Assembly (NCBI GenBank): GCA_028554795.2 | Contig: CM068825.1 | Coordinates: forward strand, 151,378,053-151,442,052 | Direction: 5' to 3' | From: Sinohyriopsis cumingii | Lineage: Eukaryota > Mollusca > Bivalvia > Unionida > Unionidae | Length of the DNA stretch: 64,000 nucleotides | In this document: positions 43,676 through 62,698 of the stretch, one piece after another | Layout of the letters: each line of letters starts with the position of its first letter | Numbering within the stretch: position 1 is the first letter of the stretch | Program-made: the position numbers and the translations under genes | The notes under the pieces: model-generated | Databases searched by the model: none | What the model was told of the DNA's origin: nothing | What the model saw: only the letters and a program-made list of their open reading frames with translations

Positions 43676-43709
43676 GCTGAATTAGTAGCGTGAGTAGTAG
43701 TGAATAGGG

Positions 43710-43925
43710 GCACCCTAGGGACAATGGGACTTACCATTAAAAACAGGGTCCCGGCACTCTGGGGACATTGTAAATTTAACATGGGAAATATTGTCGCGGC
43801 ACTCTAGGAACAAGGGGAATTTAACATGGGAATAGAGTGTGGGTCTGTCTAGGGACAAGGGGAATTGAACATGGAACTATAGTTTGGGTCTGTCTAGGGA
43901 CAATGGGAATTTAACATGGGATTTT
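43710..43925 (-). repeat. Inverted copy of the TTGTCCCTAGACAG minisatellite
   Basis: The reverse complement shows 'ttgtccctagacagaccca' and 'cccatgttaaattcccctt', the same family as 2,230-3,200. It ends at an A/T-rich tract immediately left of the first Polinton end-signal. Confidence 0.85.
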
Positions 43926-43949
43926 TTTTAAAAAAATAAAAAAATAAAA

Positions 43950-44020
43950 AAATGGGGCTAGGCAATTGAAAGTCTATCTCTTTTCGAGAGATTGGAGTGG
44001 CCCTGAAAAGGGCCTTTGGG
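43950..44020 (-). repeat. Inverted repeat arm A (partner 45,057-45,137)
   Basis: About 70 bp here, including 'caattgaaagtctatctctt' and the stem-loop, are the reverse complement of 45,057-45,137 with about 10-20% differences and small gaps. The two arms bracket the divergent gene pair, so both transcripts end in the same 3' module. A third diverged copy lies at 58,700-58,760. Confidence 0.8.
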
Positions 44021-44026
44021 TTTATG
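43976..44026 (-). terminator. Histone-type 3' end A (stem-loop + purine box)
   Basis: On the minus strand 'acccaaa' precedes the 16-nt hairpin GGCCCTTTTCAGGGCC (43,999-44,014): six perfect pairs closing a UUUC loop, then ACTCCA. The purine-rich 'tcgaaaagagatag' follows at about 43,976-43,988. This is the established architecture of metazoan replication-dependent histone mRNA 3' ends (SLBP hairpin, cleavage, then a histone downstream element pairing with U7 snRNA). The stop codon of the upstream minus-strand frame (44,043) lies 28 nt before the hairpin, as in histone genes. Confidence 0.85.
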
Positions 44027-44052
44027 TTAATATTAAGATATATTAACATAAA
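44021..44052. repeat. 13-bp palindrome beside end A
   Basis: The arms TTTATGTTAATAT and ATATTAACATAAA are perfect complements separated by six bases, making a second, AT-rich hairpin between the minus-strand stop codon and the histone-type hairpin. Function unknown. Confidence 0.85.
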
Positions 44053-44276
44053 GGGCACCGCATTGGTCTTCTTCTTGTCCTTAGGCTGCGCCTGACTGCA
44101 GGACCGTAAATCAGGACTCTTTTGAGGCATCCTTGACGCTCCACATATACTCTTCGCATCCACAGACTGGTGTCTGTCCTGTGGACAACTGTCCACTTGG
44201 ATCGGACATACATCGGTATGTCCGTCCTGAACATCATCGAAGATACAAGGGTTGAAGATTGAACGTCGGTCCACAT
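44043..44276 (-). CDS. Small unknown protein, left divergent gene
   Basis: A 77-residue frame starting at the first ATG (44,276) downstream of a minus-strand TATA box (44,320-44,327; spacing about 45 nt, like the other genes of the element) and stopping 28 nt before a histone-type hairpin. The product is rich in Arg, Ser and Val with a basic C-terminus; no domain is recognised. An overlapping frame (43,894-44,304) is longer but starts on TTG and runs through the hairpin, so I prefer this one. The Asp/Gln/Lys-rich composition of the other frame keeps open the chance that the gene has suffered a frameshift. Expression would diverge from the 44,496 gene. Confidence 0.35.
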   Translation of the reverse strand: MWTDVQSSTLVSSMMFRTDIPMYVRSKWTVVHRTDTSLWMRRVYVERQGCLKRVLIYGPAVRRSLRTRRRPMRCPLC

Positions 44277-44309
44277 ATTGAGGCGCCGAGAACAGGTGAA
44301 TCAATGCAG

Positions 44310-44455
44310 TAAACTGCGCTTATTTATAGGTAGAGGAAGGATTGAAACGGATTGAGTTTATTGACCAATCCAAACACACGTTACAAAATTCAGTCAGCCC
44401 ACATCCAATCCGAAGAGAGCAGTCTGTGACGTCAGTAGTCTATATAGATTCGCTA
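44310..44455. promoter_or_regulatory. Divergent, histone-pair-like promoter
   Basis: Left-facing TATA (TATAAATA, minus, about 44,320-44,327) and right-facing TATA (TATATAG, about 44,440-44,446) flank CCAAT boxes at 44,365-44,369 and 44,405-44,409 and a perfect TGACGTCA (CRE/ATF site) at 44,427-44,434. The first ATGs lie about 45-55 nt beyond each TATA. CCAAT/CRE/TATA between divergent genes that both end in a histone-type 3' hairpin copies the layout of animal H2A-H2B gene pairs. Confidence 0.7.
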
Positions 44456-44495
44456 GCGCCAGTGCGCAGTCAATCTATGCGACAGTTTTCTCAAC

Positions 44496-45041
44496 ATGAC
44501 TGAAACTCGGAAAACGATCAATTGGGGTGTACCAGCCGTTGAGACTACACAAGGGAACCCGGGCTTACTTTCAGAAGAGGTGAATTGGGATAATGTGGAT
44601 TTTCTTACCTCGCAAGAATTTGTTCCAGAACCTTCGTCACCTTCTCCTTCATTACCACACGTGGAGAATTTTAGACAGAGACAGAAAGAAGAATTGGAGA
44701 AATTTATACAGCAGCAAAAGGAAACAGAACAAGCTTTTCTTCTACAGCAACAGCAGCAAGAAGAAGAGGTAAGGAAAAAACAAGAAGAAGTAGCAAAGAA
44801 ACAAGAGGGTGAAAGTCAAACCGTCACGGTACTGTTGGATATTTTAGCGGAGTTAAGAAGTCTCAAACAAATGTATCAGACTTATTTATCACGACCGAAG
44901 AGAATACGACCTTCCCGAGCTAAACACTCCAGCCCTGTGACTAAGCCTACCGTACCATCCTTAGTGATTTCAACCAAATCATCATCAGAAGTAGGCCTCG
45001 GCCGTGGCAAAAGCTTAACACAGTTAAAGTTGATTGCTTAA
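44496..45041 (+). CDS. Q-rich coiled-coil protein, right divergent gene
   Basis: 181 residues, starting at the first ATG after the TATA box (about 55 nt). The N-terminal 60 residues are Ser/Pro-rich. Residues about 65-115 are a strongly charged coiled coil of Glu/Lys/Gln with a Q5 run ('LLQQQQQEEEVRKKQEEV'), followed by a hydrophobic helix (ILAELRSLKQMYQTYL) and a basic, Ser/Pro-rich tail. I do not recognise a family. The stop is followed after 20 nt by a histone-type 3' hairpin. The gene at 58,311 at the other end of the element has the same composition (charged helix, Q-run, basic tail) and the same 3' end, so the two may be functional or evolutionary counterparts. The frame is undamaged, unlike most neighbours. 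Confidence 0.75.
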   Translation: MTETRKTINWGVPAVETTQGNPGLLSEEVNWDNVDFLTSQEFVPEPSSPSPSLPHVENFRQRQKEELEKFIQQQKETEQAFLLQQQQQEEEVRKKQEEVAKKQEGESQTVTVLLDILAELRSLKQMYQTYLSRPKRIRPSRAKHSSPVTKPTVPSLVISTKSSSEVGLGRGKSLTQLKLIA

Positions 45042-45053
45042 ACTCACCCCTAT

Positions 45054-45102
45054 AATAAAAAGGCCCTTTTCAGGGCCACCCCTATGTCTCGAAAAGAGAT
45101 TG
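45054..45102 (+). terminator. Histone-type 3' end B
   Basis: AATAAA (45,054-45,059) abuts the hairpin GGCCCTTTTCAGGGCC at 45,062-45,077, followed by ACCCC (canonical ACCCA) and, 13 nt after the stem, 'gaaaagag' (45,091-45,098) inside 'gtctcgaaaagagattg'. The AAAAGAG core is complementary to the conserved CUCUUUU of U7 snRNA. It sits 20 nt after the stop codon of the 44,496 gene. A poly(A) signal touching the hairpin offers a possible alternative end. Confidence 0.88.
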
Positions 45103-45194
45103 ACTTTCAATTGCCAATAACCAAAAAGCCCCATTTTACCCCTATAGTACGTGTCTGTGTATGAGTGCGTGAGTATAGGTTCTTATTTTAAAAT

Positions 45195-45240
45195 CAAAAA
45201 CCCAAAGACACTTACCTTTTATAATCAATTTATTGTTTTT
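45195..45240 (-). promoter_or_regulatory. Second copy of minus-strand TATA block and poly(A) signal
   Basis: On the minus strand 'tataaaaggtaagtgtctt' (about 45,198-45,217) nearly repeats 'tataaagggtaagtgtctt' of the zinc-knuckle promoter at about 45,797-45,815. Just upstream on the same strand is AATAAA (about 45,229-45,234), a plausible poly(A) signal for the zinc-knuckle gene. The repeated block may be a remnant promoter; GTAAGT is also a 5' splice-site match. No gene is seen downstream of it on this strand before 44,276. Confidence 0.4.
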
Positions 45241-45323
45241 TTAAATATTTACAATCCAATTCACAATTCACAATTCTCAACAGAACACTTTAAAAAGTTC
45301 ATACACTTCTTCTGTTTCATTGT

Positions 45324-45754
45324 TCACTCTCTCTGTTTTTTGAATTTCTTCACCGTCACAGTCTTTTCCTCCTCTTCCTCCTCACTTTCTTCCCTTCATC
45401 TTTTCTTCTCCTGTTTCTTTTTCGTCACCTGTCTGCTTTCTTCCTCGTCTTCTTCCTCTGAAGAATCCCTCTCTTCTCACTCCTCTTGTTTCTTTTTTGG
45501 GCAATCTGGAGACCAATGTCCTTTTTCTTGACAATGATAACAGGTATCTTGACCGTCTCTTTTAACCCCTGTTTTTCGTTTTTGACGGTCTGGACACTCT
45601 CAAGACTAATCCCTTTCTTCTGACAGATATAGCAAGTATCTTCACTTTTATCTCGAAAAGAAGGAGAGTAGTCCGAAGGCTGGTCTGAAGAAAATTTTCT
45701 AATGACCCCTCGCAAAGCTCTGATGAAACGTTCGATCTGGGTAGTCTCTTCCAT
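45324..45754 (-). pseudogene. Double CCHC zinc-knuckle protein, broken
   Basis: Start ATG 45,754 lies about 55 nt after a minus-strand TATA (45,808-45,817). The first 45 residues are helical. Two retroviral nucleocapsid-type knuckles follow: 45,594-45,634 (Cys-X2-Cys ... Cys, 41 nt, so one base is missing and the His position is lost) and 45,501-45,542 (C-Y-H-C-Q-E-K-G-H-W-S-P-D-C, a perfect C-X2-C-X4-H-X4-C). The knuckle 2 frame differs from the knuckle 1 start frame, which proves a frameshift between them; in-frame TAG/TGA in knuckle 1 and two TGA in the acidic Glu/Lys tail add to the damage. The role is inferred to be single-stranded nucleic acid binding. Such a protein is not among the usual Polinton genes I know. 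Confidence 0.75.
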
Positions 45755-45796
45755 CGTTCTACTCGGTTTGAGAGTGAAATGAATAGTGAAAGGACA

Positions 45797-45842
45797 AGAC
45801 ACTTACCCTTTATATACGCTGGTCTGCCATGACTATAAAGTA
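45797..45842. promoter_or_regulatory. Compact divergent TATA pair (zinc knuckle / polymerase)
   Basis: A minus-strand TATATAAAG (45,808-45,817) and a plus-strand TATAAAG (45,834-45,840) lie about 20 bp apart and point outward. Each is about 54 nt from the ATG of its gene (45,754 and 45,888). Confidence 0.7.
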
Positions 45843-45887
45843 GCCCATGGTGTTTAAACTTTAGTCATTTGCCGTTTTTCACTCAAG

Positions 45888-48800
45888 ATGAAACGATCCA
45901 ATTCATTTGAGAAGAAAGAAGAAAGTAGGAGGCAGAAACGTGATATATCGCCTCGTACCAGGGCTGAAGTCTTGGCACAAATTCATGCCAGTGATTTTGA
46001 AGAGGACATGAGCGAACCAGAATCCAAACCCTCTAAACAAAGTTCACCACCCTTAGTTAACCCTGAAAAATACTATTCCATTCGAGAGACAGAAAAGCGC
46101 TCCTCTAGAAAATTTAGAACCACGACTTACAAATACACGGTGAAGTTTAAAGATTTCAAGTCCGAAGTACCGTTGGAGAAAGCAGAAGGGTTCATCACCG
46201 GGGTGTGGGATTCTTTACTTACCACACTCAAGCGACAATGTCAACCCAAAGAAGACGATCGCTTGAGACTTTCCATACAACACGACGGTTTGAAATCCCC
46301 TGTTTGGATCGAGTTTAGCGCCCCTACAGAATTGACTGCTTCCAAAGTCATGGACAAAATGCAACACGTACAACAATCCAATGACTAGTTTGACATCACC
46401 GATGGAAAAGACACACCGGACATGACCCACGTCTCTCCTCCTCAAGGGACTGGACGCAAAAAGATGTTATTGGTGGACGAGCTTCGCAGCACCAAAACAA
46501 CTCTCGTCCGAATTCACAACCCTCAAGACCAGATGTGTTTAACCAGGGCTATTGTGGTGGGACGAACCTATGCCAACAAGAACGACACGGCAGAATGGAA
46601 AAGAGACTGGGAGAATATTCGAAAATCGAACCCAGCCAAACAACAAAGTGAAGCAGAACTCCTGTTGCAACAAGCCGACTTGCCCAAAGACACACCCTGT
46701 GGCATTCCTGAAATGCAAAAATTGCAAGATGTCTTAGCTCCACGCTACACCTTGAAAGTGCACCCTCAAGAAATGCGTGAGCCTCTGTTGTTTCGAGGGA
46801 AAGACTTCAAGGATGGAAAATACATTCACGTCTATCATCACGATGACCATTTCGATACCATTACCACTATCACTGGATTCCTGGGATACAGATATTACTG
46901 TGAGAAATGTGACTATGCCTATCATAATCGAGAGCAACACAAGCATTGTGGATCGAAATGCTCAGGATGTTTGGCCTCTCCACCCTGTCTGAGCGAAGGA
47001 CAAGAACCAGTGCATTGTTTCACTTGTCTACGCACGTTTGTCAGCCCTGCCTGTTACCAACAGCATTTGAAGACGCAAGGTTCACAGAAGAAATGCGCTT
47101 GTCAACTGCTGAGATTGTGCCCCACGTGTGGACAAGGCATATGTACCAATAGTGCCAAGGGACACGTATGTTCAGGAAAGAAAAAATGTCACATTTGTCA
47201 TCACATCGTGGACTTGGAACACCAATGCTACGTGCAAACCTACCAACCCCAACCAGAGAAAGAGGATGGACACAAGAAGAAAGGCAATTTCATCTTTTTT
47301 GATTTCGAATGCATGCAAGAGACTGGTGTTCACATTCCTAATTTCTGCGTGGCTCATCGAGCGTGCGAGAAGTGCATTCAAGAACCTATCGTGAGTCATT
47401 GCTCTTACTGCAGTAAGATTCCTGGAGGGCATGAAAAAATCTTTCGGGGACCGAACACGCTAGCCGATTTCCCACAATGGGTCTTAGACCCCATCGACAA
47501 GACGTGGAGCCAAGAGGACATCGAACGTTACGGAGATTGTCATCGTCATGCCACGGTGATGGCTCACAATTTCTCCGGATACGATGGACAGTTTCTTCTC
47601 AGATACTATACGGAACAAGGCACCGAGCGTCCTAAACTCACTTTGAACGGAGACAAAATCATTTTCATGCAAGTGGGACAAGTACAGTTTACAGGTTCGA
47701 TGAGCTACTTGGCCATGCCTTCGAGTCGAATGCCTAAAACGTTTGGAATGACAGAAATGGCATAAGGGTACTTTCCACACTTTTTCAATACGGAAGCCAA
47801 TCAACACGCCGTTCTACCCCATTTGCCTGAGGCTCACTATTACGACCCCGACAACATGCGTACCGAAAAACGAGAAGCTTTCTACGCTTGGTACCAGGCT
47901 CACGCCTCAGACCCTTTTAACTTTCAGGAAGAAATGCTAAAGTATTGTCGTTCCGACGTGGACATTTTACGGCGTTGCTGTGGAAAATTTCGAGAACTGT
48001 TCATGGAACACGGAGGGGTCGATCCTTTGAAAGAAGCTTGCACCATTGTAAAAGCGTGTTCCTTAGTGTACCGCCTACGATTCATGCCTGAAAACACCGT
48101 GGCTGTCATCAGTCCTCAAACGACCAACTATGTCAAACGTCAATACTCGGTCAAAGCCCTACGCTGGTTACATTACTTGTGCGACAAGGAAGACAAATGG
48201 ATTCAGCATGCCCGCAACGGAGGGGGCGAAAAGACCATCGGAACGCATTCGGTTGATGGCTGGGACTTAGAAAACCCCAAGATTGTGTACGAGTTTAACG
48301 GTTGCTCATTTCACGGATGTCCCGTCTGTTACCCTGACCGTGGCACTAGAAATCAGTTTTTACAACGAACCATGGAAGACTTGTACCAGGACACTTGTCA
48401 GCGACGCCTAAAGTTAGAACAGGAAAGATACCAAGTGGTGGGAATGTGGGAACACGAATACGATTACCGTTTGAAAACCGATCCCGAGTTTAAACGCCTC
48501 GTGGAAAGTAACCAGTTCATGGACCCCCTGAACCCGAGGGATAGTTTGTACGGAGGAAGGACCAATGCCACCTGTTTGCTGTACCAAGCCGACGAAGGGA
48601 AAGGAGAAGAAATCAAATACTTGGACGTGTGTTCGTTGTATCCCTACGTGTGCAAATATTGTCGCTTTCCTGTAGGGCACCCAAAATTTTTCACGAACAC
48701 ATCGACCTGAAAAACATTCGACAATACGAAGGCTTGATCAAGTACAAAGTTTTGCCTCCCACGAACTTATACCATCCCGTCTTACCTCACCATTGCCAAG

Positions 48801-49927
48801 GCAAACTGATGTTTCCTTTGTGCCGTACTTGTGCTGAAACGTGCAACCAAGATCAACCTTGTCATCACACCCAGGAATAATGGGCCTTGACGGGAACGTG
48901 GGTCAGCGTACAATTGTACAAAGCTCTGGACATGGGATACCAACTGTTAGAAGTGTACGAAATTTGCCACTTTCCCAAGACACAACAATACCACAAGGGT
49001 GACCCCACTCAGAAAGGCATTTGCGCAGACTACGTGGATGTCTTTTTGAAACTGAAGCAAGAAGCCAGTGGCTATCCTTCCTGGTGTCACACTCCCGAAG
49101 ACCAAATACATTTCAAAGAGAAATACCGGGAACAAGAAGGCATCACTTTAGATCACATCGAGAAAAACGAAGGCAGGCGATTGTTTGCCAAAGTGATGTT
49201 AAATTGCTTGTGGGGTAAAATGGCACAACGACCGTGTTTACCCAAGACGGAATATTTGACAGAACCTTCCCGCTACTTCCAGATGATTCACGACAAAACC
49301 AAATTCATGAAACACGTGGACGTCGTTCGCTAAAATTTGATCTTAGTGAATTACGAAGAAGATCTGGACTTTGTACAAGACGACCCTTTTGGAAATGTCA
49401 TCATTGCGGCTTACGTGACATCTCATGTTCGCTTAAAATTGTACGAAGCTTTAGAACTGTTAGGGGAACGCGTCCTGTACTTTGACACGGACAGTTGCAT
49501 TTACATCCATCACCCGAGTCAACAGCACCCTGACATCGAAGGAGACCGTTTAGGAGCCTGGACAGACGAGCATCCCGACGACAAGGTTCTAAGTTTCGTC
49601 AGTGGTGGTCCAACAAATTACGGTTACGAATACCGTGACAAACAAGGAGAAGTGCACACGACGTGTAAAGTGAAAGGATTGACTCTGAATTATCGTACCA
49701 GTCGTGTGGTCAACTTTGGGGTATTGAAAGAAGCCTTACAGTCTAGAGAAGATGAACACTTTAAAGTGATCACCTATCAACCGAACAAGATTGTACGTTT
49801 ACCCACTCACCACATCGTCAGTCGACCCTTGGAAAAAGTCTATCAAATCGTGTACCAGAAGCGAGTGCGACTTCCCAATCATTTTACCTTACCGTATAGA
49901 CATGTCGATATAAAACATTGGCTGTAA
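45888..49927 (+). pseudogene. polB: Protein-primed family B DNA polymerase (pPolB), broken
   Basis: About 1,346 codons, a normal Polinton length. It replicates linear element DNA using a terminal protein primer (family knowledge). Visible parts in order: N-terminal region; Cys-rich zinc-binding cluster (about 46,890-47,230); exonuclease motif I DFE (about 47,300), II NFSGYDG (about 47,570), III YCRSDVD (about 47,943); polymerase motif A DVCSLYP (about 48,623), motif B KVMLNCLWGK (about 49,190), motif C YFDTDS (about 49,480). Breaks: in-frame TAG 46,386-46,388, TAA 47,763-47,765, a one-base loss at about 48,679-48,690, TAA 48,878-48,880 and TAA 49,331-49,333. All catalytic motifs are otherwise preserved, so decay is recent or several events hit one good copy. 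A TATA box for the next gene lies inside its 3' end. Confidence 0.96.
49909..49915 (+). promoter_or_regulatory. TATA box for BIR gene 1
   Basis: TATAAAA, 38 nt before the ATG at 49,947, inside the polymerase coding region. Confidence 0.55.
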
Positions 49928-49946
49928 AAGGATTGCCTCCAGAAGG

Positions 49947-50318
49947 ATGACTTCTCCACAGCAAGAATCCAGTGAGAACTCCAAGTTCAAACCCTACCAT
50001 TTTCCGGTCTTCTTACCTGACTATTGTGATTGTGCCCGTCGATTGGACACGTTTCAAGCATGGCCTACGGATAGGGAAGGATTACCTTCTTCGCATGTTT
50101 TAGCTAGAACAGGATTTGTCTACTTGGGACCTGAGACTGAATTGGGATACGAAGTACAGTGTTTCGCTTGCGCACTGAAGTTACGAATGGATCTATGTAT
50201 CTATAAAGATTCAGCTATTCTGGAACATACTCGATGGTATCCGCACTGCCCTTACCTTTCTATGGCCTTTCCACCCATCACACTACGGTACAATTATGAT
50301 GGTACCTTCCAAAACTAG
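49947..50318 (+). CDS. BIR-domain (IAP-like) protein 1
   Basis: 123 residues and intact. One BIR domain spans about residues 22-105: 'RRLDTFQAWP', 'LARTGFVYLG', zinc ligands C72 and C75 (CFAC), then H94 and C101 (EHTRWYPHC), i.e. CX2C-X18-HX6C, two residues longer than the usual X16 loop. There is no RING or CARD. Family role: binding and blocking of caspases or related apoptosis proteins; baculoviruses and several adintoviruses carry similar genes. The start is the first ATG after a TATA box and lies 19 nt after the polymerase stop. In this element it probably restrains host cell death (inference). Confidence 0.9.
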   Translation: MTSPQQESSENSKFKPYHFPVFLPDYCDCARRLDTFQAWPTDREGLPSSHVLARTGFVYLGPETELGYEVQCFACALKLRMDLCIYKDSAILEHTRWYPHCPYLSMAFPPITLRYNYDGTFQN

Positions 50319-50365
50319 ACACAAAAAAGGAACGATGTAAAAGCTTGAGACTGCATTGCGACTAG

Positions 50366-50372
50366 TATAAAC
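50366..50372 (+). promoter_or_regulatory. TATA box for the 50,429 gene
   Basis: TATAAAC in 'actagtataaacagggg', 63 nt before the ATG. Confidence 0.6.
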
Positions 50373-50428
50373 AGGGGTTATGGTCAAGATCGATAGTTCA
50401 TTGTGACTACCAAGACCAAGCGAACAAG

Positions 50429-50704
50429 ATGAATACTTTCAGAGAAACACAAAACAAGTTCAGAAAGGCACAATTCAAGTTTGGGGCTTCTGAAGTGGAA
50501 TGTGATTGTGAGCCTTGCGATGGGAACGATGCTGTACTCTGTGACCTTAGCGATGCCGTAAAGCATCATGGGAACTTTGTTCTCACTACTCCTGTCATGG
50601 AAAGTGATGCTGTGCATGTCAAACCTGAGGGATGCGAAAGCGATGCCGCTCGTCCTCTTGAACACTTTACTGGGTTTCGTTTTAAAGGTGAATGTTCACC
50701 TTGA
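50429..50704 (+). CDS. Small unknown protein with CDCEPC motif
   Basis: 91 residues with their own TATA box. The N-terminus is basic and amphipathic (FRETQNKFRKAQFKFG); then come a Cys cluster (ECDCEPCDG), a further Cys, and three 'DAV/SDA' repeats whose DNA ('gcgatg..gatgctgt', 'agcgatgccg', 'agtgatgctg') repeats too. No domain recognised. It lies between the two BIR genes and runs in the same direction. Function unknown. Confidence 0.55.
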   Translation: MNTFRETQNKFRKAQFKFGASEVECDCEPCDGNDAVLCDLSDAVKHHGNFVLTTPVMESDAVHVKPEGCESDAARPLEHFTGFRFKGECSP

Positions 50705-50752
50705 CGTCTACCCCCCTACGGATGTCATCCAGCCCTGAGCAAACTCCTGTCC

Positions 50753-51442
50753 ATGTCACCCAACCCTCATCGAAACGAACCTGTGAAAGACGAATATTCG
50801 TTTCCTGTGCGTTTGTCGGAATACTGCGACTTTGAAAATCGTCTTCAATCGTTCAAAGGAAAATGGCCAAAGTATCTGGGAGGACCAACTCCTGAAGAAT
50901 TAGCCAGAGCCGGATTTTTCTACTTGGGCGAAGGGGATAAAGTCAAGTGTTTCAGTTGCGGTGTGTCACTTCACCACTGGGAACCGCAAGATTCGGCCTA
51001 CCTATTCCTATTCATGGATACTTTACAAGAGAACATTCGTGCTTTGCCTGTCGAGTTGAAAGAACGCATTTACCGAGAGCTGGTCAAAATACAAGTCAAA
51101 CGTAAAGAACAGTTGCATCCGTTACGTCACCAGATCTTTAACCACTGGTACCTGAATGGTATAAGAGAACTGATTCGTCAGAAATTGTTTCAGTGGTCAG
51201 ACCTTGTTCAATACTTCCAGGCCCCCGATGATCCACGTGTTCATCATTTTGGTTACTTCGAGATTCACCTAGTGAAACACATTGAGGAAAACAAGTTAAA
51301 GGATTACCAACATATGTTACGTGGAAACTACTTAGAGAAAGAGGAAACGTCTAATCGAACTTTGAAATATAGGTTACAGTTTGGAGCATTTAGATTCCCC
51401 ACTGGAGCACGAAGATCTCTGGCTAGAAAGTACGTGTATTGA
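50753..51442 (+). CDS. Truncated BIR domain fused to helical unknown domain
   Basis: 229 residues. Residues 18-82 are the first half of a BIR domain ('YCDFENRLQSFKGKWP', 'ELARAGFFYLGEGDKVKCFSCG', C66 and C69). Compared with BIR gene 1 the text jumps from 'DSA' straight to 'YLFLF', losing about 12 residues that include the His and last Cys zinc ligands, so this BIR should not bind zinc. From residue 88 (an internal ATG at 51,014) the protein is helical: 'LPVELKERIYRELVKIQVKRKEQ' resembles the F-box-like start of proteins I have seen in large DNA viruses, but I cannot name it. The two halves may be natural partners or two genes joined by the deletion. The frame is open throughout. Confidence 0.75.
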   Translation: MSPNPHRNEPVKDEYSFPVRLSEYCDFENRLQSFKGKWPKYLGGPTPEELARAGFFYLGEGDKVKCFSCGVSLHHWEPQDSAYLFLFMDTLQENIRALPVELKERIYRELVKIQVKRKEQLHPLRHQIFNHWYLNGIRELIRQKLFQWSDLVQYFQAPDDPRVHHFGYFEIHLVKHIEENKLKDYQHMLRGNYLEKEETSNRTLKYRLQFGAFRFPTGARRSLARKYVY

Positions 51443-51459
51443 CTCCGAAACAAATAGAG

Positions 51460-51467
51460 TATAAAAA
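51460..51467 (+). promoter_or_regulatory. TATA box
   Basis: TATAAAAA just after the 51,442 stop; it would drive the 51,477-51,943 region. Confidence 0.6.
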
Positions 51468-51476
51468 CAGGCTGCC

Positions 51477-51943
51477 ATACCACGACTTTTATCACATGTA
51501 ATTGAACAGATTCCGTGGCAGGAACTTAATGACCATACTCAAACCGTGGATCATTACCATCAATTATTAGAAGAACTGTATCCAATCAATTTGGGACGAC
51601 GCATAGTGTATGTCTTAGTGACTTGTTTTCTGGGATTTCGTTTACCAGCCGATTCCTTGTGGACTCTTTACGAACAGTATTTACCACCTCATTCAACATG
51701 AAAGTGGTGCCTTTAAATGTTCACGAGAGACTCATTTTGCTCAAAACCTTATGTTTTCATCTGGATACTTCTCGACCTCTACGGGAAAAAAAGATTCGTC
51801 AACTTTTAGCTACCCAAGATGTGTATGACGATGTGTGTGTAGCGTTTGACTTACACCCCCATTGGACAGATGTCCGTGCCTGGAAAAAATGGGATTTTGG
51901 GGCTTGGACCGAAGAAGTGGCACAGTATGCTCGAGAGTTGTGA
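51477..51943 (+). pseudogene. Helical unknown protein in two frames
   Basis: The first frame (about 51,477-51,701) is open and protein-like ('IEQIPWQELNDHTQTVDHYH') but has no ATG near its start; an ATA at 51,477 could be a lost ATG, though it lies very close to the TATA box. It ends at TGA 51,699-51,701, overlapping an ATG (51,698) that opens the second frame, 51,698-51,943 ('LNVHERLILLKTLCFHLDT ... DVYDDVCVAFDLHPHW'). Either these are two genes with an ATGA overlap or one gene with a frameshift. Both parts look all-alpha and lack a recognisable domain. A death-fold adaptor is conceivable beside BIR genes, but I see no motif proving it. Confidence 0.5.
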
Positions 51944-52229
51944 TCCTTCCTTTCAACGTCCAAAGAAAAAAGTCAATTTTCAACCTGTGTTAGTGACAGT
52001 ACCAGAAGAACCTGTCACCCAGGACAGGACTGTCGTGGACATGCCTGAAAGACCCTTTCGGGAGGACACTTGTGTGACCTTACCCCCTATAGAACTGGTC
52101 AGAACATTACCCAAAACATGTTGTACAGACACTTGTGTTTATTCTACGTTGATGATTTTGATGTGCCTTTTATCGTTGTACTTAAGCCTTTGGCTTTTAT
52201 ATATTTTTGTCTTTCGTGTTCATGTTTAA
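51927..52229 (+). CDS. Small single-pass membrane protein
   Basis: 100 residues from ATG 51,927, overlapping the previous frame by 17 nt. Residues 1-70 are Pro/Arg/Glu-rich and soluble; the C-terminus is one strong transmembrane segment (residues about 73-98, 'STLMILMCLLSLYLSLWLLY') ending in 'VFRVHV'. Cys pairs precede the membrane segment. An upstream frame extension to 51,846 only shadows the previous gene and was not used. AATAAA at 52,237 follows the stop by 7 nt. Function unknown. Confidence 0.6.
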   Translation: MLESCDPSFQRPKKKVNFQPVLVTVPEEPVTQDRTVVDMPERPFREDTCVTLPPIELVRTLPKTCCTDTCVYSTLMILMCLLSLYLSLWLLYIFVFRVHV

Positions 52230-52236
52230 AACATTC

Positions 52237-52266
52237 AATAAACGTGTCCTGAAAAAAGTATATAAA
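52237..52266 (+). promoter_or_regulatory. Poly(A) signal followed by ATPase TATA box
   Basis: AATAAA at 52,237-52,242 ends the preceding unit; TATATAAA at 52,259-52,266 is 54 nt before the ATPase ATG. Confidence 0.7.
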
Positions 52267-52312
52267 CTCTTGTCTTGTTTGTTTTCGTGTCACAAGTGAC
52301 ATTCCTGACACT

Positions 52313-53066
52313 ATGGCTACTTCTGCTGTCTCTGCTCCCTCTTCCTCTACTGTCAATGTCATCGACGAACACTTAGATCGTGCCAGTTGGGAGGCTTTGT
52401 ATCTTCGCCATCTCTTTAACATGCTCATTGCTGGACCTAGCGGTTCAGGCAAAACCGAATTCGTCAAACGTTTGATCGAACATAAACATCATTTGATCGA
52501 TCGACCACCTCAACGTATCGTGTGGTGTTACAAAGAGTGGCAATCGGCATACAGCCTCTTGCGAGAAAGTCAAGGCGATTCCATCGTGTTTGTGGAAAGC
52601 ATTCCTAAAGAAGACGACGGCATCGTCTCTGACTCCCGTCAAACCGATTTGGTCGTTTTTTGACGACATATTAGGAGAAGACGAAGAAGAAATTAAACTG
52701 TGGTTCACGCGCAAAGGGCATCACCCTAATGCCAGTGTCGTTTGCATCACTCAAAATTTGTTTCAACAAAGTAAAGCCCATCGCACCATCAGTCTCAATG
52801 CGCATTACGTGGTCTTGATTAAAAGCCCTCGAGATAACTCGCAAGTGCAAGTCTTAGCCAAACAGTTAGGAACGCCTTGGCTGACTCAGGCGTACGACGA
52901 TGCCACTCAAACTCCACACGCCTATTTAGTCGTCGATTTGAAACCTACGACCCCGATGATTTGCGATTTCGTACCCACTTGTTTCACCACTGGGGCCAAG
53001 AAGGAAGGCCTGTCCTGTACACGTCTCCCTCCTCGACTTAACTTCACTCCACAAAAAAATCTATAA
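52313..53066 (+). pseudogene. FtsK/HerA-type genome-packaging ATPase, one frameshift
   Basis: About 250 residues. Walker A is GPSGSGKT (residues 41-48 of the first frame). Walker B is 'DLVVF' followed by two Asp in the next frame, at about 52,645-52,668. A sensor-like 'VVCITQN' lies at about 52,738. The frame changes at a T6 run (52,656-52,661): removing one T restores a continuous hhhhDD Walker B, so this is a one-base insertion or a homopolymer reading error. Downstream 'LNAHYVVLIKSPRD' and 'LAKQLG' are typical of the Polinton/adenovirus-like packaging ATPase branch. Role: ATP-driven DNA packaging into the capsid (family knowledge). The start is the first ATG after the TATA box. Confidence 0.93.
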
Positions 53067-53069
53067 AAA
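53062..53069 (+). promoter_or_regulatory. TATA box for the core-like gene
   Basis: TATAAAAA overlapping the ATPase stop codon, 45 nt before ATG 53,107. Confidence 0.7.
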
Positions 53070-53106
53070 CCTCAGACACCTTTCGTCTGTTTCACACAGC
53101 ATCAAC

Positions 53107-54067
53107 ATGACGTCCCTTCAATCACATCTCCCTGTCAAATTGATTCGTGCCTTGTATGGCATCAGTTGAGAATTAAAACCACAAATACGAGCTCGTGTCT
53201 TAGAAGCTAGTCTCAAAAAAGTCTTACGATGGTTCACGGTGACAGCACGTCAATTACTACAAGGGATCATTCAGATTCCTCATCAAACTAAACGCTTTTT
53301 TGATCGAAACAAAGTCGCTTTGACCCAACTGGCCGATCCTCGCATCGACACTCAAACCAAAAAACAAATCATTTTGAAACCTGGAGGGAGCGGTACTCTA
53401 GGAGGGGTCATCATTCGCTCTCTCTTAAGATGGGATCCTAATGCCCCCAAAGTTCTCACCAAGAAAAAAGTCAAACGAAGCTCCAAGAAGAAGAAGAAAA
53501 AGACCAGGTCCCCAAGGAGACCCGTGTCTGCAAGAACTTCTCCAGTGGCGGGACCTTCCTCTTACCAGACACCACCCCGGAAAAAGAAAAGAAGCCCCCA
53601 GAAAAAAGAAGCAGAGAAAAAGTCCCCAGAAAAAGAAAAGTCCACAAAAAACTAGTCGCAAGAGAGGCACTTCGGCCAGGACGCAACCTAACACTCGCAA
53701 ACCACGACCTGCAACGGCGGTGACCGCGTCTCCGGTAGCCTCAGGTTCATTCACTTCCCCGTTGATGTCACCAAGAACTGATGAGTACTTGGAGACGTTG
53801 ATCACACCAAGAACTTCTCCGTTGATAATCCCAAGAACTTCCCCAGTGGCAGGACCCTCCAATTTAGTGACAGTGGCCGCTGCTCACAAAGTAACTGCTC
53901 CCAAAATCAAAGTTCAAGAAAGATCGGGCATGTTACAAAGTTTACTGGATTTGTCCATGCAATAACTGACTCGATTTAGTCCGTTACGTACCCCTGCACG
54001 ACGTGTCATGCCTGTCTTGAAGTTGATACGACGTAAAGACAATCAGTGGCGACGCGTTCCAGTATAA
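53107..54067 (+). pseudogene. Basic core-like protein, broken
   Basis: An original frame of about 320 codons. Residues 1-20 are followed by TGA 53,167-53,169. An 'ADPRIDTQTKKQIILKPGGS' block resembles the QKKK..LVQRGG block of the pX-like gene next door. Then comes a very basic Lys/Arg/Ser/Pro region. The motif RTSPVAGPS appears once in the first frame (about 53,536) and again in another frame (about 53,827), and a similar 'TPRTSPLI' lies between, so one frameshift occurred in the A-rich stretch about 53,590-53,655. A further TAA at 53,963-53,965 is followed by 33 open codons (basic, 'TPARRVMPVLKLIRRKDNQW') to the stop at 54,065. Probable DNA-condensing virion core protein, by composition and position. 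Confidence 0.7.
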
Positions 54068-54071
54068 AAAA
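54063..54071 (+). promoter_or_regulatory. TATA box for the pX-like gene
   Basis: TATAAAAAA overlapping the preceding stop codon, 54 nt before ATG 54,117. Confidence 0.7.
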
Positions 54072-54116
54072 GCTCTGTGACCAAGTAGGGGTATCAATGT
54101 TTTGGTGCTCCTGAAG

Positions 54117-54523
54117 ATGTCACCCTCCAGAAAACATCCCTCTTCTAAACAGTCCCAAGGAGAGCAAAGGAAAGGACTACCTCCTCGTTGAGTCAAGCAT
54201 GGGGACATGTTATCTGTCCTGGCCAAAGCTTCTCCACCCCTACGAAAAAAAAAATCATTCAAACGGCTTCCAAAGAGGTTATCAATACCGTGTTCGAATG
54301 TTGTTTGAACGTCTTGAAAGGTACGATCCCTTTGTCCAAATACCATAAACAATGCTTAGGCAAACATCGTCACGTTCTTCGCCAAATGGTTCAAAAGAAA
54401 ATCCCCATTCGTCAAAAAAAGAAGATGTTGGTCCAACGTGGAGGAATTTTGCCCCTCTTGTCAGGTCCCTTACTGAAAGGAGTCATGGGAACCATGTTCG
54501 GAGGACTCGTGGGAGCAAGATAA
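54117..54523 (+). pseudogene. pX-like core/hydrophobic-tail protein, broken
   Basis: About 135 codons. An N-terminal basic stretch is interrupted by TGA 54,189-54,191; then 'MLSVLAKASPPLRK' leads to an A10 run (54,244-54,253) where the frame changes. After it, 'IIQTASKEVINTVFECCLNV', 'LRQMVQKKIPIRQKKKMLVQ' and 'RGGILPLLSGPLL' with a Gly-rich hydrophobic end. The helical 'ASKE.IN..ECCLNVLKG' followed by a KKK..LVQRGG and hydrophobic tail is a very common small protein of animal Polintons/adintoviruses, likened by others to adenovirus pX. It is probably a virion protein associated with DNA or membrane. Confidence 0.8.
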
Positions 54524-54527
54524 AAAG
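54519..54527 (+). promoter_or_regulatory. TATA-like box for the VPY gene
   Basis: GATAAAAAG overlapping the preceding stop, 53 nt before ATG 54,572; weaker than the other boxes. Confidence 0.45.
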
Positions 54528-54571
54528 GCCCTCTGAAGTCCCAAGATCTCAGAATCGACCCCTGACATCCC

Positions 54572-55189
54572 ATGGAAGGACGAAAACTAGCTTTAGTGCC
54601 CTACAAACGATGGATGGAATACCATCGTTGCCAAGAACAACGCACCCCGCATTTACCTCCCAATCCCCATTTGACTGAGATGTCCCAGTTACAACACGAA
54701 TTGCAGTTCCTTGATGGATCGCCAAGATTTGTCCGAAACAGAAAAATCGCAAAAGTACGGTCAACTCTTGCAACGACTGCAACTCTTTCACCAGAAAGCT
54801 TTAGGCGAAACAGCTCTACCCACTCTGAAAGATTTCAAGACCTTGATGAAAAGTACAGCACCATCACCAGTACCACTACCACCACTACCAGTGACCAAGA
54901 CAGAAAAAGGAGAAGAAGAGAAGGGTTTCAAACTCCACCAGAAAAAGTACGCAAGTTAACAACACCACCTACCTCCAGAATTGGATGGATTAAAAAGATG
55001 ATGACCACCCCTTCTTCATCAGAAGAGAAAAAGAAGGTGAAGACAGAAGTGAAACAAGAAAAAATATCCCCTGTTCAGATATCCTCCTCCTTCACACCTA
55101 TTGCCGGTCGTACACGCAAAGCATTGCAATCCAAAAAAGTACCCCACGAGAAAAAGAGTAGCATCTTCCAAGACTGGGTGCCTTACTAA
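54572..55189 (+). pseudogene. Conserved Polinton 'VPY' protein, two compensating frameshifts
   Basis: About 205 codons. 'KLALVPYKRW' opens the protein, as in many Polintons ('..LVPYEKY..'). The next conserved part, 'MDRQDLSETEKSQKYGQLLQ RLQLFHQKAL', sits in a different frame from about 54,711, and the C-terminal 'PPTSRIGWIKKMM' to 'FQDWVPY' is again in the first frame. Two opposite shifts, at about 54,700-54,712 and 54,900-54,945, therefore bracket a 200-base stretch read wrongly in the first frame. The middle is Pro/Thr/Lys-rich. Function in the family is unknown; its position between pX and integrase is typical. Confidence 0.72.
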
Positions 55190-55204
55190 CACACAAACAA
55201 AAGA

Positions 55205-56314
55205 ATGGAAAAAGTCTTAGCCAGCATTTACTACGATCCCTCCCATCCTGCAGGTTACGCAGGGGTTCAAAAATTGTATCGTGCTGCCAAAACTCGACTG
55301 AAAAGTCTCCGTTTACCTCAAGTGCAACGATGGTTACAAAAACAAGCTACTTACCCTTTACACAAACCCATTCGACGCAAGTTTTCCAGAAGTCGCACCC
55401 GAGTGGAAGGCATCGATCATCAATGGCAAGCCGATTTAGCCGATGTCTCTCATTTGGCCAGCTACAATCGCGGGTACAAATATTTGTTTTGTGTCATCGA
55501 CGTCTTTTCCAAATTTGCCTGGGTCGTGCCCTTGACTTCCAAATCGAGCAGTGAGTTAGTGCGAGCCCTGCAACGGGTGTTGAAACAAAGCGGTCGTCAC
55601 CCTCTTCGATGGCAAACGGACAAAGGCACCGAATTTCTGAACCAAGCTTTCCAAAAAGAATTAAAGAAACGTGACATTCATTTTTTTACCACCGAGAATC
55701 CTGAACCCAAAGCCAGCATCGCGGAACGTTTTCAACGCACTTTGAAAGAACGCATGTGGAAATATTTTACGCATCATCACACTCTGAAGTACATTGACAT
55801 CTCACCGCACCTGGTGCAAGCGTACAACCAAACTTACCATCGAAGTATCGGACGTGCCCCGCAAGAAGTGACTCCCGAGAACGAAGTGCTGGTGTTCAAG
55901 CACCTGTTTGGTACGTCTCCGACGAGGGCTATCCCCAAGAAAAGTAGAGTGTTGACCGTAGGAGATTGGGTGCGCATTGGTAAAACTAAACGCACTTTCG
56001 ACAAAGGTTACTTACCTAACTGGACTACCGGATTGTTTCGTGTCACTGGACGAGTGCATGGCCGTCATCCTGCCGTCAATAAATTAGAAGACATGAACGG
56101 AGAAGTGCTCAAAGGAACGTTTTATTTGCTCGAGTTACAACGTGTCACCAAAAAAGAAGACGACGTGTATGACATCGAAAGCATTCTCGGACGCAGAACC
56201 CGTAAAGTGGGCAAACGACGTGTCAAAGAAGTCAAAGTACGCTGGAAAGGATATCCACCCAGTTTTCATTCTTGGATCGACGTTTCGCAAGTCATCGACT
56301 ATAAAAAGAAGTGA
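55205..56314 (+). CDS. int: Retroviral-type integrase with C-terminal chromodomain
   Basis: 369 residues, uninterrupted. Domains: N-terminal helical region with 'IYYDPSHPAGYAGVQKL'; rve catalytic core with D77 (WQADLAD), D139 (WQTDKGTEF) and E174 (KASIAERFQ), a proper D,D-35-E triad; SH3-like barrel around 'VGDWVRIGKTKRTFDKGY'; chromodomain (residues about 323-369, 'YDIESILGRR', 'KVRWKGY', 'SWIDVSQV'). It catalyses 3' processing and strand transfer of element ends into chromosomes; the chromodomain is thought to guide it to modified histones. There is no clear TATA box before it and it starts 15 nt after the VPY gene. It is the only large gene of the element without a stop or shift. Confidence 0.96.
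   Translation: MEKVLASIYYDPSHPAGYAGVQKLYRAAKTRLKSLRLPQVQRWLQKQATYPLHKPIRRKFSRSRTRVEGIDHQWQADLADVSHLASYNRGYKYLFCVIDVFSKFAWVVPLTSKSSSELVRALQRVLKQSGRHPLRWQTDKGTEFLNQAFQKELKKRDIHFFTTENPEPKASIAERFQRTLKERMWKYFTHHHTLKYIDISPHLVQAYNQTYHRSIGRAPQEVTPENEVLVFKHLFGTSPTRAIPKKSRVLTVGDWVRIGKTKRTFDKGYLPNWTTGLFRVTGRVHGRHPAVNKLEDMNGEVLKGTFYLLELQRVTKKEDDVYDIESILGRRTRKVGKRRVKEVKVRWKGYPPSFHSWIDVSQVIDYKKK
56299..56307 (+). promoter_or_regulatory. TATA box at integrase 3' end
   Basis: TATAAAAAG overlapping the last integrase codons. Only 21 nt separate it from ATG 56,320, which is short for this element. Confidence 0.4.
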
Positions 56315-56319
56315 CCATC

Positions 56320-56726
56320 ATGCCTTTCACACAGACGCAGCTCCTACTGCTACCACTCCTTCACCCAGTTCTTCTCTGAAAGATTTACAAAAACAACCTT
56401 TGTGGGTGTGGTGTGGAGAACGTGTGCCTAAAACGCACATCGTCTTTTTCTGCCAAATCTTCGTGGTGTATTGTGTCATCGGGGAAGCCATCGCCAATTT
56501 AATTTTGCAACAAGAAGACAAACAATTGTGGACCATTTTATTGAGCAGCTGCATCGGTAACCTGCTACCCAATCCCTCCCTGAAATTCTCTTCCAACGGG
56601 AACCACGGGAACCTTGTGTCCAGTGCCAGTGTCAGTCACCACTCCAACAACAACCCTATTTTGGGCGGAGACACGCCTCTGACGTCCAGTAACCCCTCGG
56701 ACAGCCACAGAACTCTGGAATTCTGA
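56320..56726 (+). pseudogene. Small membrane protein, start frame uncertain
   Basis: The protein-like frame reads 'SLKDLQKQPLWVWCGERVPK' then two hydrophobic helices, 'IVFFCQIFVVYCVIGEAIAN' and 'LWTILLSSCIGNLLPNPSL', and a Ser/Asn/Pro-rich tail ending at TGA 56,724-56,726. The 'VVFFCQ..., LW..LLSSC.G.LLPNP' pattern is conserved in small two-helix proteins of animal Polintons next to the penton gene. The only ATG after the integrase stop (56,320) is in another frame, so a one-base indel probably separates the start from the body. Possible virion membrane protein. Confidence 0.6.
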
Positions 56727-58064
56727 GTCACACTAACCAATTTTACTTAACCTTACCCAGTGACAGTTCCATGGAGGTGTTTCCCAACAACACCTTGTGC
56801 TGTTGCACGGCCAAATTACCTCAGATCATCCCATTAGATCACGAAGCCCATTGGGAAGTGGCTTTGGTGGAAATGATTCACCCAACACAAATCAAAAACA
56901 TCACTGAAACTCAAAACATTTTTGAGGTCGAAATCCTTAACCAACAATAGCAAGAAACCATGAATGAAATCGGGTTTTCAGGCGACGTAAAACCATCCAA
57001 CAATTCACTCTTCAGTATCTACACCTTGAAAATTCCGTCAGGGTTTTATTTTAGTGGTCAACATTTGGTGGATACCATTGCTTCCAGATTCGAGTTAGCC
57101 TTTGGCAAAATCCTGAACAGAACCAAAAAAAGTGTCACCTTGGAGTACCATAAAGTGGCTCGTCGTTTACTGATGAAATTTCAGGATACCCAAACGTTGT
57201 CCATCAGTTTTATTCGTGACTTGTCTGATATTTTAGGTGGAGACACAAAAATGGCTCCAAATTTTAAACCGAAGATCAACAGCAATATGGAATTTTACAA
57301 GTTTTTTCGATTCCCTGTAGAACTGAACCAAGGACTGAATTTGATGTTTGTGTATTCCGATGTGGTGGAGTACAACGTGGTTGGACACACCTCCGTACCG
57401 TTACTGCGTGTCATTCCTTTCAAAGTGGATTCTGCCACGACCACTGACGAGGAAGGTGGAAACACTTACCACGTCCACCGCGAATTTGTACATCCTCCCT
57501 ATTTGCCTGTCAGCAAGTCGTATTTGGACACGGTCAACATTGCTATAAAAGGAGATCTGGGACAAAATATTTCATTCACCAAAGGAAAAGTCACGGTGAA
57601 ACTCCATTCTCGAAAACGGTTCTCTCACGACTCGCAAGTCATGTATCCAGTGTACCGAGGGGTTGCTTGACAACGAGGACACGGTTTAGGAGATATGTTA
57701 AAATCGGCCTTTCGTTCGGTGGCTTCGGTGTTGAAACCGATGGTGACACGCGGATTGCACGCCTTGAAAGATGCGTCACTGACACACGGTAAAGAATTTC
57801 TCCAAAATGTCATCATCGAGAAACAAAACCCCAAAGAAGCTTTCTTGAGGGCAGGCAAAACTGTCTTGCTGCAAATGGGTAAAGACCTTTTAGGCCGACG
57901 AGAAACTCCTATAAATGCCCTGCACGCTACCGAGTCAGGCAATCAGCAAGGACAAGGCAAAGAGACGACGAAGAAAACACCCTTTCACCAGACTTCACAC
58001 GTCTAAAGCTAGAAAGGCAAAGAAAAGAAGAAACGTTCGAGACCTAGACGTTTTTGATTATTGA
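56723..58064 (+). pseudogene. Penton/minor-capsid-like protein with basic tail, broken
   Basis: About 447 codons in one original frame. The N-terminal beta-rich domain has 'FYLTLPSDSSMEVFPNNTLC' and 'HWEVALVEMIHPTQIKNI', a signature of Polinton penton/fibre-type proteins; 'KIPSGFYFSGQHLVDTIASR' follows. The C-terminal part 'QRGHGLGDMLKSAFRSVASV' and the helical segment after it match the membrane-active/basic tail usual in this family. Damage: no ATG before residue 17 (a CTG at 56,723, overlapping the previous stop, could be a lost ATG in an ATGA overlap), TAG 56,948-56,950, TGA 57,668-57,670, and a frameshift at about 57,905-57,960, after which the Arg/Lys-rich end ('NVRDLDVFDY') finishes at TGA 58,062-58,064. 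Role: capsid vertex and internal protein (family knowledge). Confidence 0.82.
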
Positions 58065-58077
58065 GACACAGAAAAAA

Positions 58078-58326
58078 ATGATGCACCGAGAATCTTGCTC
58101 TTGTTCCAAGTCGGAACTGGATCTGTTTGCCATGCCCCCCACCATGATAACGATGCAAGAATCCCAGTGGGTGGAATTTCTCATGACACTCATTGAACGT
58201 TGCGGCTCGAAAACCGTGGAGGGATGTTTTCCTTCACGTCCGCGCATTGACTTTAAAGCCGGGGTAGCCTCCAGTCTAACCATCCATTGTCGACTCATCC
58301 TCCTACGAAGATGTGCTCCAAACTAG
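58078..58326 (+). pseudogene. Major capsid protein (hexon-like), N-terminal stub only
   Basis: The first about 34 residues, including 'CSKSELDLFAMPP' and 'QESQWVEF', match the start of the double jelly-roll major capsid protein of animal Polintons ('SELDLF..PPTQTS...WVEY'). After about 58,179 the resemblance stops; the remaining frame to 58,326 is unlike the family, which normally has 450-650 residues. More than 90% of the gene is therefore deleted here. It starts 14 nt after the penton-like stop, the usual order. Confidence 0.72.
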
Positions 58327-58673
58327 CTAAGCTAAACGAAGCCTACGTGAATTTGCATAGGGTCAGACACAGTCTGATACCGAAGCCAGAAGAGACAGAG
58401 AATGTGAGAATGTTAAAAGTCACTGAAGACCTGATAGAAGAGCTCTTCAGAGAAGAAGTGAACAGGGAAAAAGAAGAATGGACAGAGAAGTACAGACTTC
58501 AGAAACAGCAGAGAGAGCAGCAACAGCAGCAACAACAGCAGCAGGAACCTGAACCTGACAGAGGCTTTGTCGATTGTCGTATCGACACCAAAGAGTTCTT
58601 CTTCTCTTCCCGAAGAAGCAGACCTATCGTCAGAAAGTCTATCGTCAGAGGACGTCGCATTCTTAGAAACTAA
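58311..58673 (+). CDS. Q-rich coiled-coil protein at right end
   Basis: 120 residues from ATG 58,311 (an upstream extension to 58,287 would need a TTG). Helical N-terminus ('LAKLNEAYVNLHRVRHSL'), charged coiled coil ('LIEELFREEVNREKEEWTEK'), a Q9 run, 'EPEPDRGF', then an Arg/Ser-rich tail. An alternative tail in another frame (acidic, 'LSSESLSSEDVAFLETK') also looks protein-like, so a late frameshift is possible. The stop at 58,673 is followed after 37 nt by a histone-type 3' end, as in the 44,496 gene, whose composition is similar. No family recognised. Confidence 0.6.
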   Translation: MCSKLAKLNEAYVNLHRVRHSLIPKPEETENVRMLKVTEDLIEELFREEVNREKEEWTEKYRLQKQQREQQQQQQQQQEPEPDRGFVDCRIDTKEFFFSSRRSRPIVRKSIVRGRRILRN

Positions 58674-58710
58674 ACGATCGCCCTAGCTTCAACTTCGCAC
58701 ACAAAAAAAC

Positions 58711-58748
58711 AGCCCTTTTCAGGGCTACCACAATCTCTAGAAAAGAAA
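58711..58748 (+). terminator. Histone-type 3' end C
   Basis: Hairpin AGCCCTTTTCAGGGCT (58,711-58,726): six pairs and a UUUC loop, with the first G-C pair changed to A-U as a compensated pair. It is preceded by an A-rich 'caaaaaaac' and followed by ACCACA and, 13 nt after the stem, 'gaaaagaaa' (58,740-58,748). Same spacing as end B. The compensatory first pair argues that the stem is under selection and not merely copied. Confidence 0.85.
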
Positions 58749-58764
58749 TAACAATAGATTTGCC

Positions 58765-62120: not shown

Positions 62121-62151
62121 TATTATTATTCGTTGTCTTTAGTGTCTAATT

Positions 62152-62673: not shown

Positions 62674-62698
62674 TTTTATTTTAAAAGAGCTAGTGTTT

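Follow-up and report, generated by a model that had tools for sequence, protein, structure and literature searches.

Does a virus-like element that encodes no histone end part of its messages in the way that histone genes do? The question was raised by a Polinton (Maverick) element of the bivalve Sinohyriopsis cumingii, one copy of which lies in the 64,000 nucleotides (nt) analysed here (assembly GCA_028554795.2, contig CM068825.1, positions 151,378,053 to 151,442,052 of the forward strand; hereafter the window, with position 1 as its first letter). Three genes of this copy, termed A, B and C, are each followed on their sense strand by a hairpin and a purine box of the kind that ends replication-dependent histone mRNAs. 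The arrangement recurs at other copies of the element and resembles the ends of the H3, H4 and H2B genes of the host. In the histone pathway SLBP sits on the stem and the U7 small nuclear ribonucleoprotein (snRNP) on the purine box; cleavage downstream of the stem leaves an mRNA with no poly(A) tail. It is very likely, in our judgement, that this Polinton lineage uses the host histone pre-mRNA 3′-end signal for its terminal genes.

Histone-type modules in the window and in host histone genes

The genes and their 3′ modules were located as follows.

44043..44276, minus strand: gene A, a basic protein of 77 amino acids (open reading frame (ORF), codon-position pattern and ratio of non-synonymous to synonymous change (dN/dS) across copies)
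43999..44014, minus strand: histone-type hairpin of gene A (Rfam RF00032, 35.9 bits, above gathering)
43979..43985, minus strand: GAAAAGA purine box resembling the histone downstream element, 13 nt past stem A (sequence; equal spacing in other copies and in host histone genes)
44496..45041, plus strand: gene B, 181 amino acids, a long helix and a basic C-terminal part (19 database relatives, 58-80% identity)
45062..45077, plus strand: histone-type hairpin of gene B (RF00032, 36.5 bits)
45091..45097, plus strand: GAAAAGA purine box, 13 nt past stem B (sequence)
58311..58673, plus strand: gene C, of type C1, 120 amino acids (10 database relatives, 66-86% identity)
58711..58726, plus strand: histone-type hairpin of gene C, the first pair being A-U in place of G-C (RF00032, 28.9 bits, under gathering)
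58740..58746, plus strand: GAAAAGA purine box, 13 nt past stem C (sequence)

All three hairpins combine a perfect 6-bp stem with a UUUC loop and stand where an earlier note on this DNA had placed them, at 28 (A), 20 (B) and 37 nt (C) from the stop codon, in agreement with the 20-37 nt given there. The GAAAAGA box 13 nt after the stem had been assigned to B and C alone; both carry it, and the restriction was lifted since A has the box too. In Rfam the modules were matched by RF00032 (Histone3; gathering score 34 bits) over positions 45,057-45,102 (B), 43,974-44,019 on the minus strand (A) and 58,706-58,751 (C). With the 64 kb searched against 4227 families, E values were 5.5e-7 for the match of 36.5 bits and 9.6e-7 for that of 35.9 bits. 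The C match, at 28.9 bits and under gathering, had an E value of 1.3e-4 in a 22-kb search. A core pattern allowing up to two mismatches matched the window three times, a number reached by 1 of 100 shuffled sequences.

No histone was found to be encoded, as had been claimed: core-histone peptides scored 56 or less against the six frames of the window, and neither these peptides nor Pfam gave any histone sequence in A, B or C. The polymerase, ATPase, integrase and capsid genes of the window copy had no histone-type signal in the Histone3 searches.

Histone genes of the host were sought with Pfam, scoring 150 of 662 candidates, many of which lie about 8.3 kb apart on shared contigs and were therefore taken as tandem histone clusters. 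H3, H4 and H2B were located in one piece of 3.2 kb. Their 3′ ends read GGCCCTTTTTAGGGCC (H3, H4) and GGCCCTTTTCAGGGCC (H2B). In all three, GAAAAGA comes after a further 13 nt; stop-to-stem distances are 28 (H3), 27 (H4) and 34 nt (H2B) and Rfam scores 35.9, 37.7 and 38.2 bits, respectively. Over 40 aligned nt the window modules agree with the three histone ends at 29-34 positions, compared with 33-35 among the histone ends themselves; over the next 20 nt only 6-10 positions agree. With the replication-dependent histone 3′ end (RF00032) the element thus shares the stem GGCCCU/AGGGCC, the 13-nt gap, GAAAAGA and a short stop-to-stem distance. Its UUUC loop is that of host H2B, H3 and H4 having UUUU. 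It differs from such ends in that its genes are non-histone genes in a virus-like element and in that the C types open the stem with an A-U pair. Judged from these alignments, the signal of the element is of the host's own histone kind.

The U7 RNA that serves the host histone genes should pair with the box of the element too, because the three host genes share GAAAAGA at 13 nt. Duplexes computed with human and fly U7 5′ ends gave mixed results. For the human sequence, base-shuffles did as well or better in 79 (A), 93 (B) and 15 (C) of 500 trials; for the fly sequence the numbers were 0, 3 and 169 of 500.

An AT-rich, near-perfect palindrome (TTATGTTAAT..ATTAACATAA; window 44021-44052) was also observed between the gene A stop and its hairpin. 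It is present in other A copies and not before the B hairpins compared with them. The purine box can form a second small hairpin in A and B (43977-43993 and 45086-45100), not in C.

Recurrence of the modules and selection on the genes

The 2.9-Gb host assembly was searched with the Histone3 model. Scores were obtained for 75 of 589,472 first-look candidates, which makes a sample and no census: the list bottoms at 34.5 bits yet omits the host histone hairpins (35.9-38.2 bits) and the window's own two. All 75 scored matches sit at copies of the ends of the element and exceed the cut-off; 69 reach at least 42.6 bits (maximum 45.6). None of five short core-histone or H1 peptides was found near any of these 75 loci.

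Complete hairpins were counted in 149 modules, the window included: 53 A, 43 B, 29 C and 24 of a fourth class, D (9 of the 149 were assigned to their class by hand). The 76 loci comprise 50 left ends, 22 right ends and 4 with both kinds. At three of the 75 (L279-L281) the strict pattern missed the Histone3 match itself, the hairpins of L280 and L281 being altered. Left ends typically carry A (minus) and B (plus) divergently, about 1.0-1.1 kb apart; right ends typically have D preceded by one or two hairpins of C type. The genes C1 and C2 are distinct from each other, and class D includes at least two unrelated types. Median stop-to-stem distances were 24 (A), 25 (B), 30 (C) and 31 nt (D), with outliers from broken frames. 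At one right end (L238) the D-type frame runs on from a cysteine-protease-like start, adenain-like by eye. Another locus (L282) holds two ORFs that look by eye like reverse transcriptase and RNase H inside its right part, apparently a nested retroelement.

Copies were also reached through the genes. Gene C-termini located by tblastn gave 91 sites, 34 of which are Rfam matches; the remaining 57, which are not, were scored for the module. A complete 6-bp hairpin was present in 48 of the 57 (A 19/21, B 20/26, C1 9/10), two of them with a G-U pair. In the other nine a hairpin occupies the equivalent position but has one or two disrupted pairs. Of the 57 loops, 55 read TTTC. The distance from stem to GAAAAGA is 13 nt at 52 sites and 14 nt at 2; at 2 further sites the box at 13 nt is a variant, and 1 site has no box. 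The recurrence of the hairpin is not an artefact of finding copies with Rfam. The stem opens with A-U in 10 of 10 C1 sites, against G-C in 41 of 47 A and B sites; this two-sided change may be a single event. In column identity the hairpin reached 97-99% and the box 99-100%, compared with 92-94% in the spacer, 78% in the three bases past the stem in A, 98% at the coding end of B and 71-90% in the region from +60 to +95. Differences of A from B, counted by region, were not significant (p 0.29).

A doubt about the reading frame of gene A was dropped on three grounds. An ORF of at least 74 amino acids precedes the hairpin in 40 of 49 A modules. Differences per codon position across 17 loci were 0.11, 0.07 and 0.28, that is, mostly at third positions (gene B: 0.17, 0.15 and 0.17 across 17 loci, without third-position bias). 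Mean dN over mean dS was 0.13 for A (40 ORFs); the values for B and C2 were 0.39 (24) and 0.21 (6). Gene A is under purifying selection as a protein, and selection acts on the protein of at least this gene. In the 17 left-end loci with intact A and B, nucleotide identity was 82% for A and 95% for B, a gap that could possibly reflect exchange between lineages or a different rate.

No Pfam family matched gene B above cut-off; AlphaFold2 predicted a helix at residues 54-131 (mean predicted local distance difference test score, pLDDT, 69). One of its database relatives, P0131, has no stop at the usual position and is extended by a tail that would correspond to the 3′ flank. This tail aligned to the translated hairpin-plus-box module of B with a score of 70, the maximum in 2000 shuffles being 43. 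Against six frames of the whole window the best scores fell on the modules of B (73), A (56) and C (48), and the next was 33. The source of P0131 may be this species or a close one.

The Polinton, its ends and its relatives

The window copy is a decayed Polinton: its capsid gene is truncated, and the frames of polymerase, ATPase and penton are all interrupted. Its membership follows from a family-B polymerase and an rve-type integrase (Pfam DNA_pol_B_2, rve, Chromo), together with a packaging ATPase and capsid proteins, present though broken or truncated in this copy. Further features were assigned as below.

43696..44017, no strand: left terminal repeat, with a 5′-AGTAGTG terminus, then tandem repeats of about 45 nt, its inner edge being the gene A 3′ module
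44277..44495, no strand: shared promoter region of the divergent genes A and B, with a TATA-like motif per side, CCAAT boxes and TGACGTCA
45425..45754, minus strand: adjacent ORF in convergent orientation; an ordinary AATAAA lies downstream of it (45,224-45,229, minus)
46389..49927, plus strand: family-B DNA polymerase, several frames, broken (Pfam DNA_pol_B_2, E 1.3e-13, above cut-off)
49947..51442, plus strand: two BIR-domain (inhibitor of apoptosis) ORFs, between polymerase and ATPase (Pfam BIR, E 1.4e-13 and 3.7e-17)
52253..53066, plus strand: FtsK-like packaging ATPase, two frames (first piece: Pfam FtsK_SpoIIIE, E 7.2e-5, 22.8 bits, slightly under the cut-off of 24)
55205..56314, plus strand: integrase with chromodomain (Pfam rve, E 2.8e-14; Chromo, 1.5e-6)
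56693..57670, plus strand: penton-like minor capsid protein with an internal stop (part after the stop: tblastn to Polinton loci L102, L105 and L110)
58048..58190, plus strand: start of the major capsid protein, the remainder missing from the window copy (tblastn to the L110 capsid gene, E 2e-8, 31 residues)

A second piece of the polymerase, searched apart, matched DNA_pol_B_2 at E 1.9e-5 and 24.2 bits, under the cut-off of 25.8. The integrase has 1001 database relatives at E of 0.001 or less, and oysters and lancelets are the named ones among the best 120 of these. From ATPase to capsid the gene order agrees with that of L110, one of the Polinton loci from contaminated prokaryote assemblies to which the penton and capsid parts were matched. 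With known Polintons and adintoviruses the element shares the polymerase, the ATPase, the integrase joined to a chromodomain, the penton, the capsid start and AG-terminated repeats; it differs from them in the histone-type ends of its terminal genes and in its BIR-domain ORFs.

The intergenic region common to A and B spans about 219 bp. Of 41 A/B pairs, 33 could be delimited and 8 could not; among the 33, a TATA-like motif is present on the A side in all and on the B side in 30, at least two CCAAT boxes in 32, and GACGTCA in 30.

The terminal repeats were compared in full for two ends. Read outward, the A end and the D end of loci L233 and L211 align from the hairpin to ...ACTACT (5′-AG from outside). 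Polintons have terminal inverted repeats that begin 5′-AG and a 6-bp target site duplication; the six bases outside these two ends, which may belong to different elements, differ. The window carries a terminus of this type, which sets its left end near 43,696. The 45-nt repeats to the left of 43,921 had been considered as host satellite; this was rejected, as the alignment assigns them to the terminal repeat. Both limits proposed for the element in the earlier note were wrong: the left one, at 43,976, falls short of a repeat that extends to about 43,696, and the right-hand hairpin is no terminus, as other right ends continue with gene D and a terminal repeat. The window copy yielded neither gene D nor the right terminal repeat.

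Beside the element, at window 60810-64000 (minus), lies another cluster of virus-like genes. By eye, its ORFs resemble a penton, a long coiled coil and an amphipathic capsid protein; Pfam gave no family above its cut-off there, and the Histone3 model did not match.

Viral sequences of IMG/VR were scanned for the module and for the proteins. A strict stem pattern matched 101 stretches, none of which (0/101) was then followed by AC. A looser pattern gave 95 stretches; seven had paired stems, all of one GGGGCTTTTCAGCCCC type, and were rejected. A single match to the module pattern was discarded also, its ORFs being prophage-like and Rfam giving no match. Protein scans with the integrase (single sequence and alignment), the polymerase piece, B and C confirmed no relatives in this database. 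In the literature, mainly under open licence, no report was found of histone-type ends in Polintons, adintoviruses or transposons; the passages and term counts taken from PMC8097293 contain no mention of histone, stem-loop or polyadenylation.

Proposed use of the signal and competing explanations

If the modules act as those of histone genes do, SLBP would bind the stem and the U7 snRNP would pair with the purine box, and together they would cut the transcripts a few nt past the stem. The mRNAs of the terminal genes would then lack poly(A) and accumulate chiefly during S phase, a time of abundant SLBP at which the element would also be replicating. For a virus-like element that copies DNA, the gain would be small, partly basic proteins made in S phase. 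The element would have two classes of mRNA, with histone-type ends on the terminal genes and not on the core genes, because the core genes of the window lack the histone-type signal. More specifically, we think it probable that in this lineage five or more non-histone genes, unrelated to one another, have come under the host histone 3′-end code, so that terminal genes would yield non-polyadenylated S-phase mRNAs and core genes ordinary poly(A) ends.

Several results weigh against this use of the signal. AATAAA stands immediately 5′ of the gene B hairpin. Compared with their near surroundings, hairpin and box are only modestly better conserved, because the copies resemble one another. No host U7 gene was found above cut-off (RF00066, best 29.3 bits against 34), three weak matches being taken as chance. 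The A and D modules lie within the terminal repeats, so that a role in DNA is possible for them. Nine distant Polinton loci, taken from contaminated prokaryote assemblies and most of them fragments (integrase 33-46% identical), gave zero Histone3 matches; model R1 matched them only at E of 0.41 or more, and no B or C gene was found. The absence is weak evidence because several of these loci are fragments. The Rfam survey of related elements proposed in the earlier note hence came out positive at the element ends in the host genome (75 of 75 scored matches) and negative in the nine distant loci. With no signal in those nine, the module probably characterises a single lineage rather than Polintons generally.

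We regard it as improbable that the module acts at the DNA level, as a part of the terminal repeats that serves as an integrase or replication site, and is only incidentally like a histone end. In favour of this, the inner edges of the repeats are formed by the A and D modules, which face outward at both ends, and the A and C modules of the window are 87% complementary across 39 nt. The B, C1 and C2 modules are internal, however, and a DNA role in the repeats cannot account for them. Modules of all four classes follow reading frames on the sense strand at the short median distances given above, they agree with the host histone genes in stem, loop, 13-nt gap and box, and in C the first stem pair is altered on both sides, all of which speaks against this reading.

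It is quite unlikely that the modules are relics of a captured histone gene pair which no longer work, the mRNAs of the element being polyadenylated. Divergent histone gene pairs consist of short genes with stem-loop ends around one promoter region with TATA-like and CCAAT motifs. A and B resemble them in divergence, promoter motifs and ends and differ from them in having no histone sequence; the AATAAA ahead of the B hairpin and the nine broken hairpins among the 57 sites would fit a relic also. Relics would decay at a neutral rate, though, whereas hairpin and box are the best or nearly the best kept parts of the 3′ flank in three gene sets, compared with 71-90% identity at +60 to +95, and several unrelated genes carry the module.

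Least probable is an RNA decoy, in which transcripts would bind SLBP or the U7 snRNP, starve host histone production and keep the DNA of the element free of nucleosomes, the ending of its own mRNAs being secondary: several modules per element and many copies would suit such a sponge, but the modules stand, as genuine 3′ ends do, a short way past coding frames, the protein of A shows purifying selection, and a decoy would need neither a reading frame nor a steady stop-to-stem distance. Both the decoy and the dead relic account for the data less well than use of the host signal to end the element's own mRNAs.

To our knowledge, the rule in animals is that histone genes alone use the SLBP/U7 pathway. 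If the terminal genes of this Polinton lineage do so as well, it would be the first virus-like element known to us to use that pathway and would break the histone-only rule in animals. Unrelated genes placed under a histone signal would be natural test cases for how SLBP and U7 choose their targets. The arrangement would also show how a virus-like element could synchronise its genes with the replication of host DNA, and it suggests that this element ties its gene expression to the phase in which the host copies its DNA.

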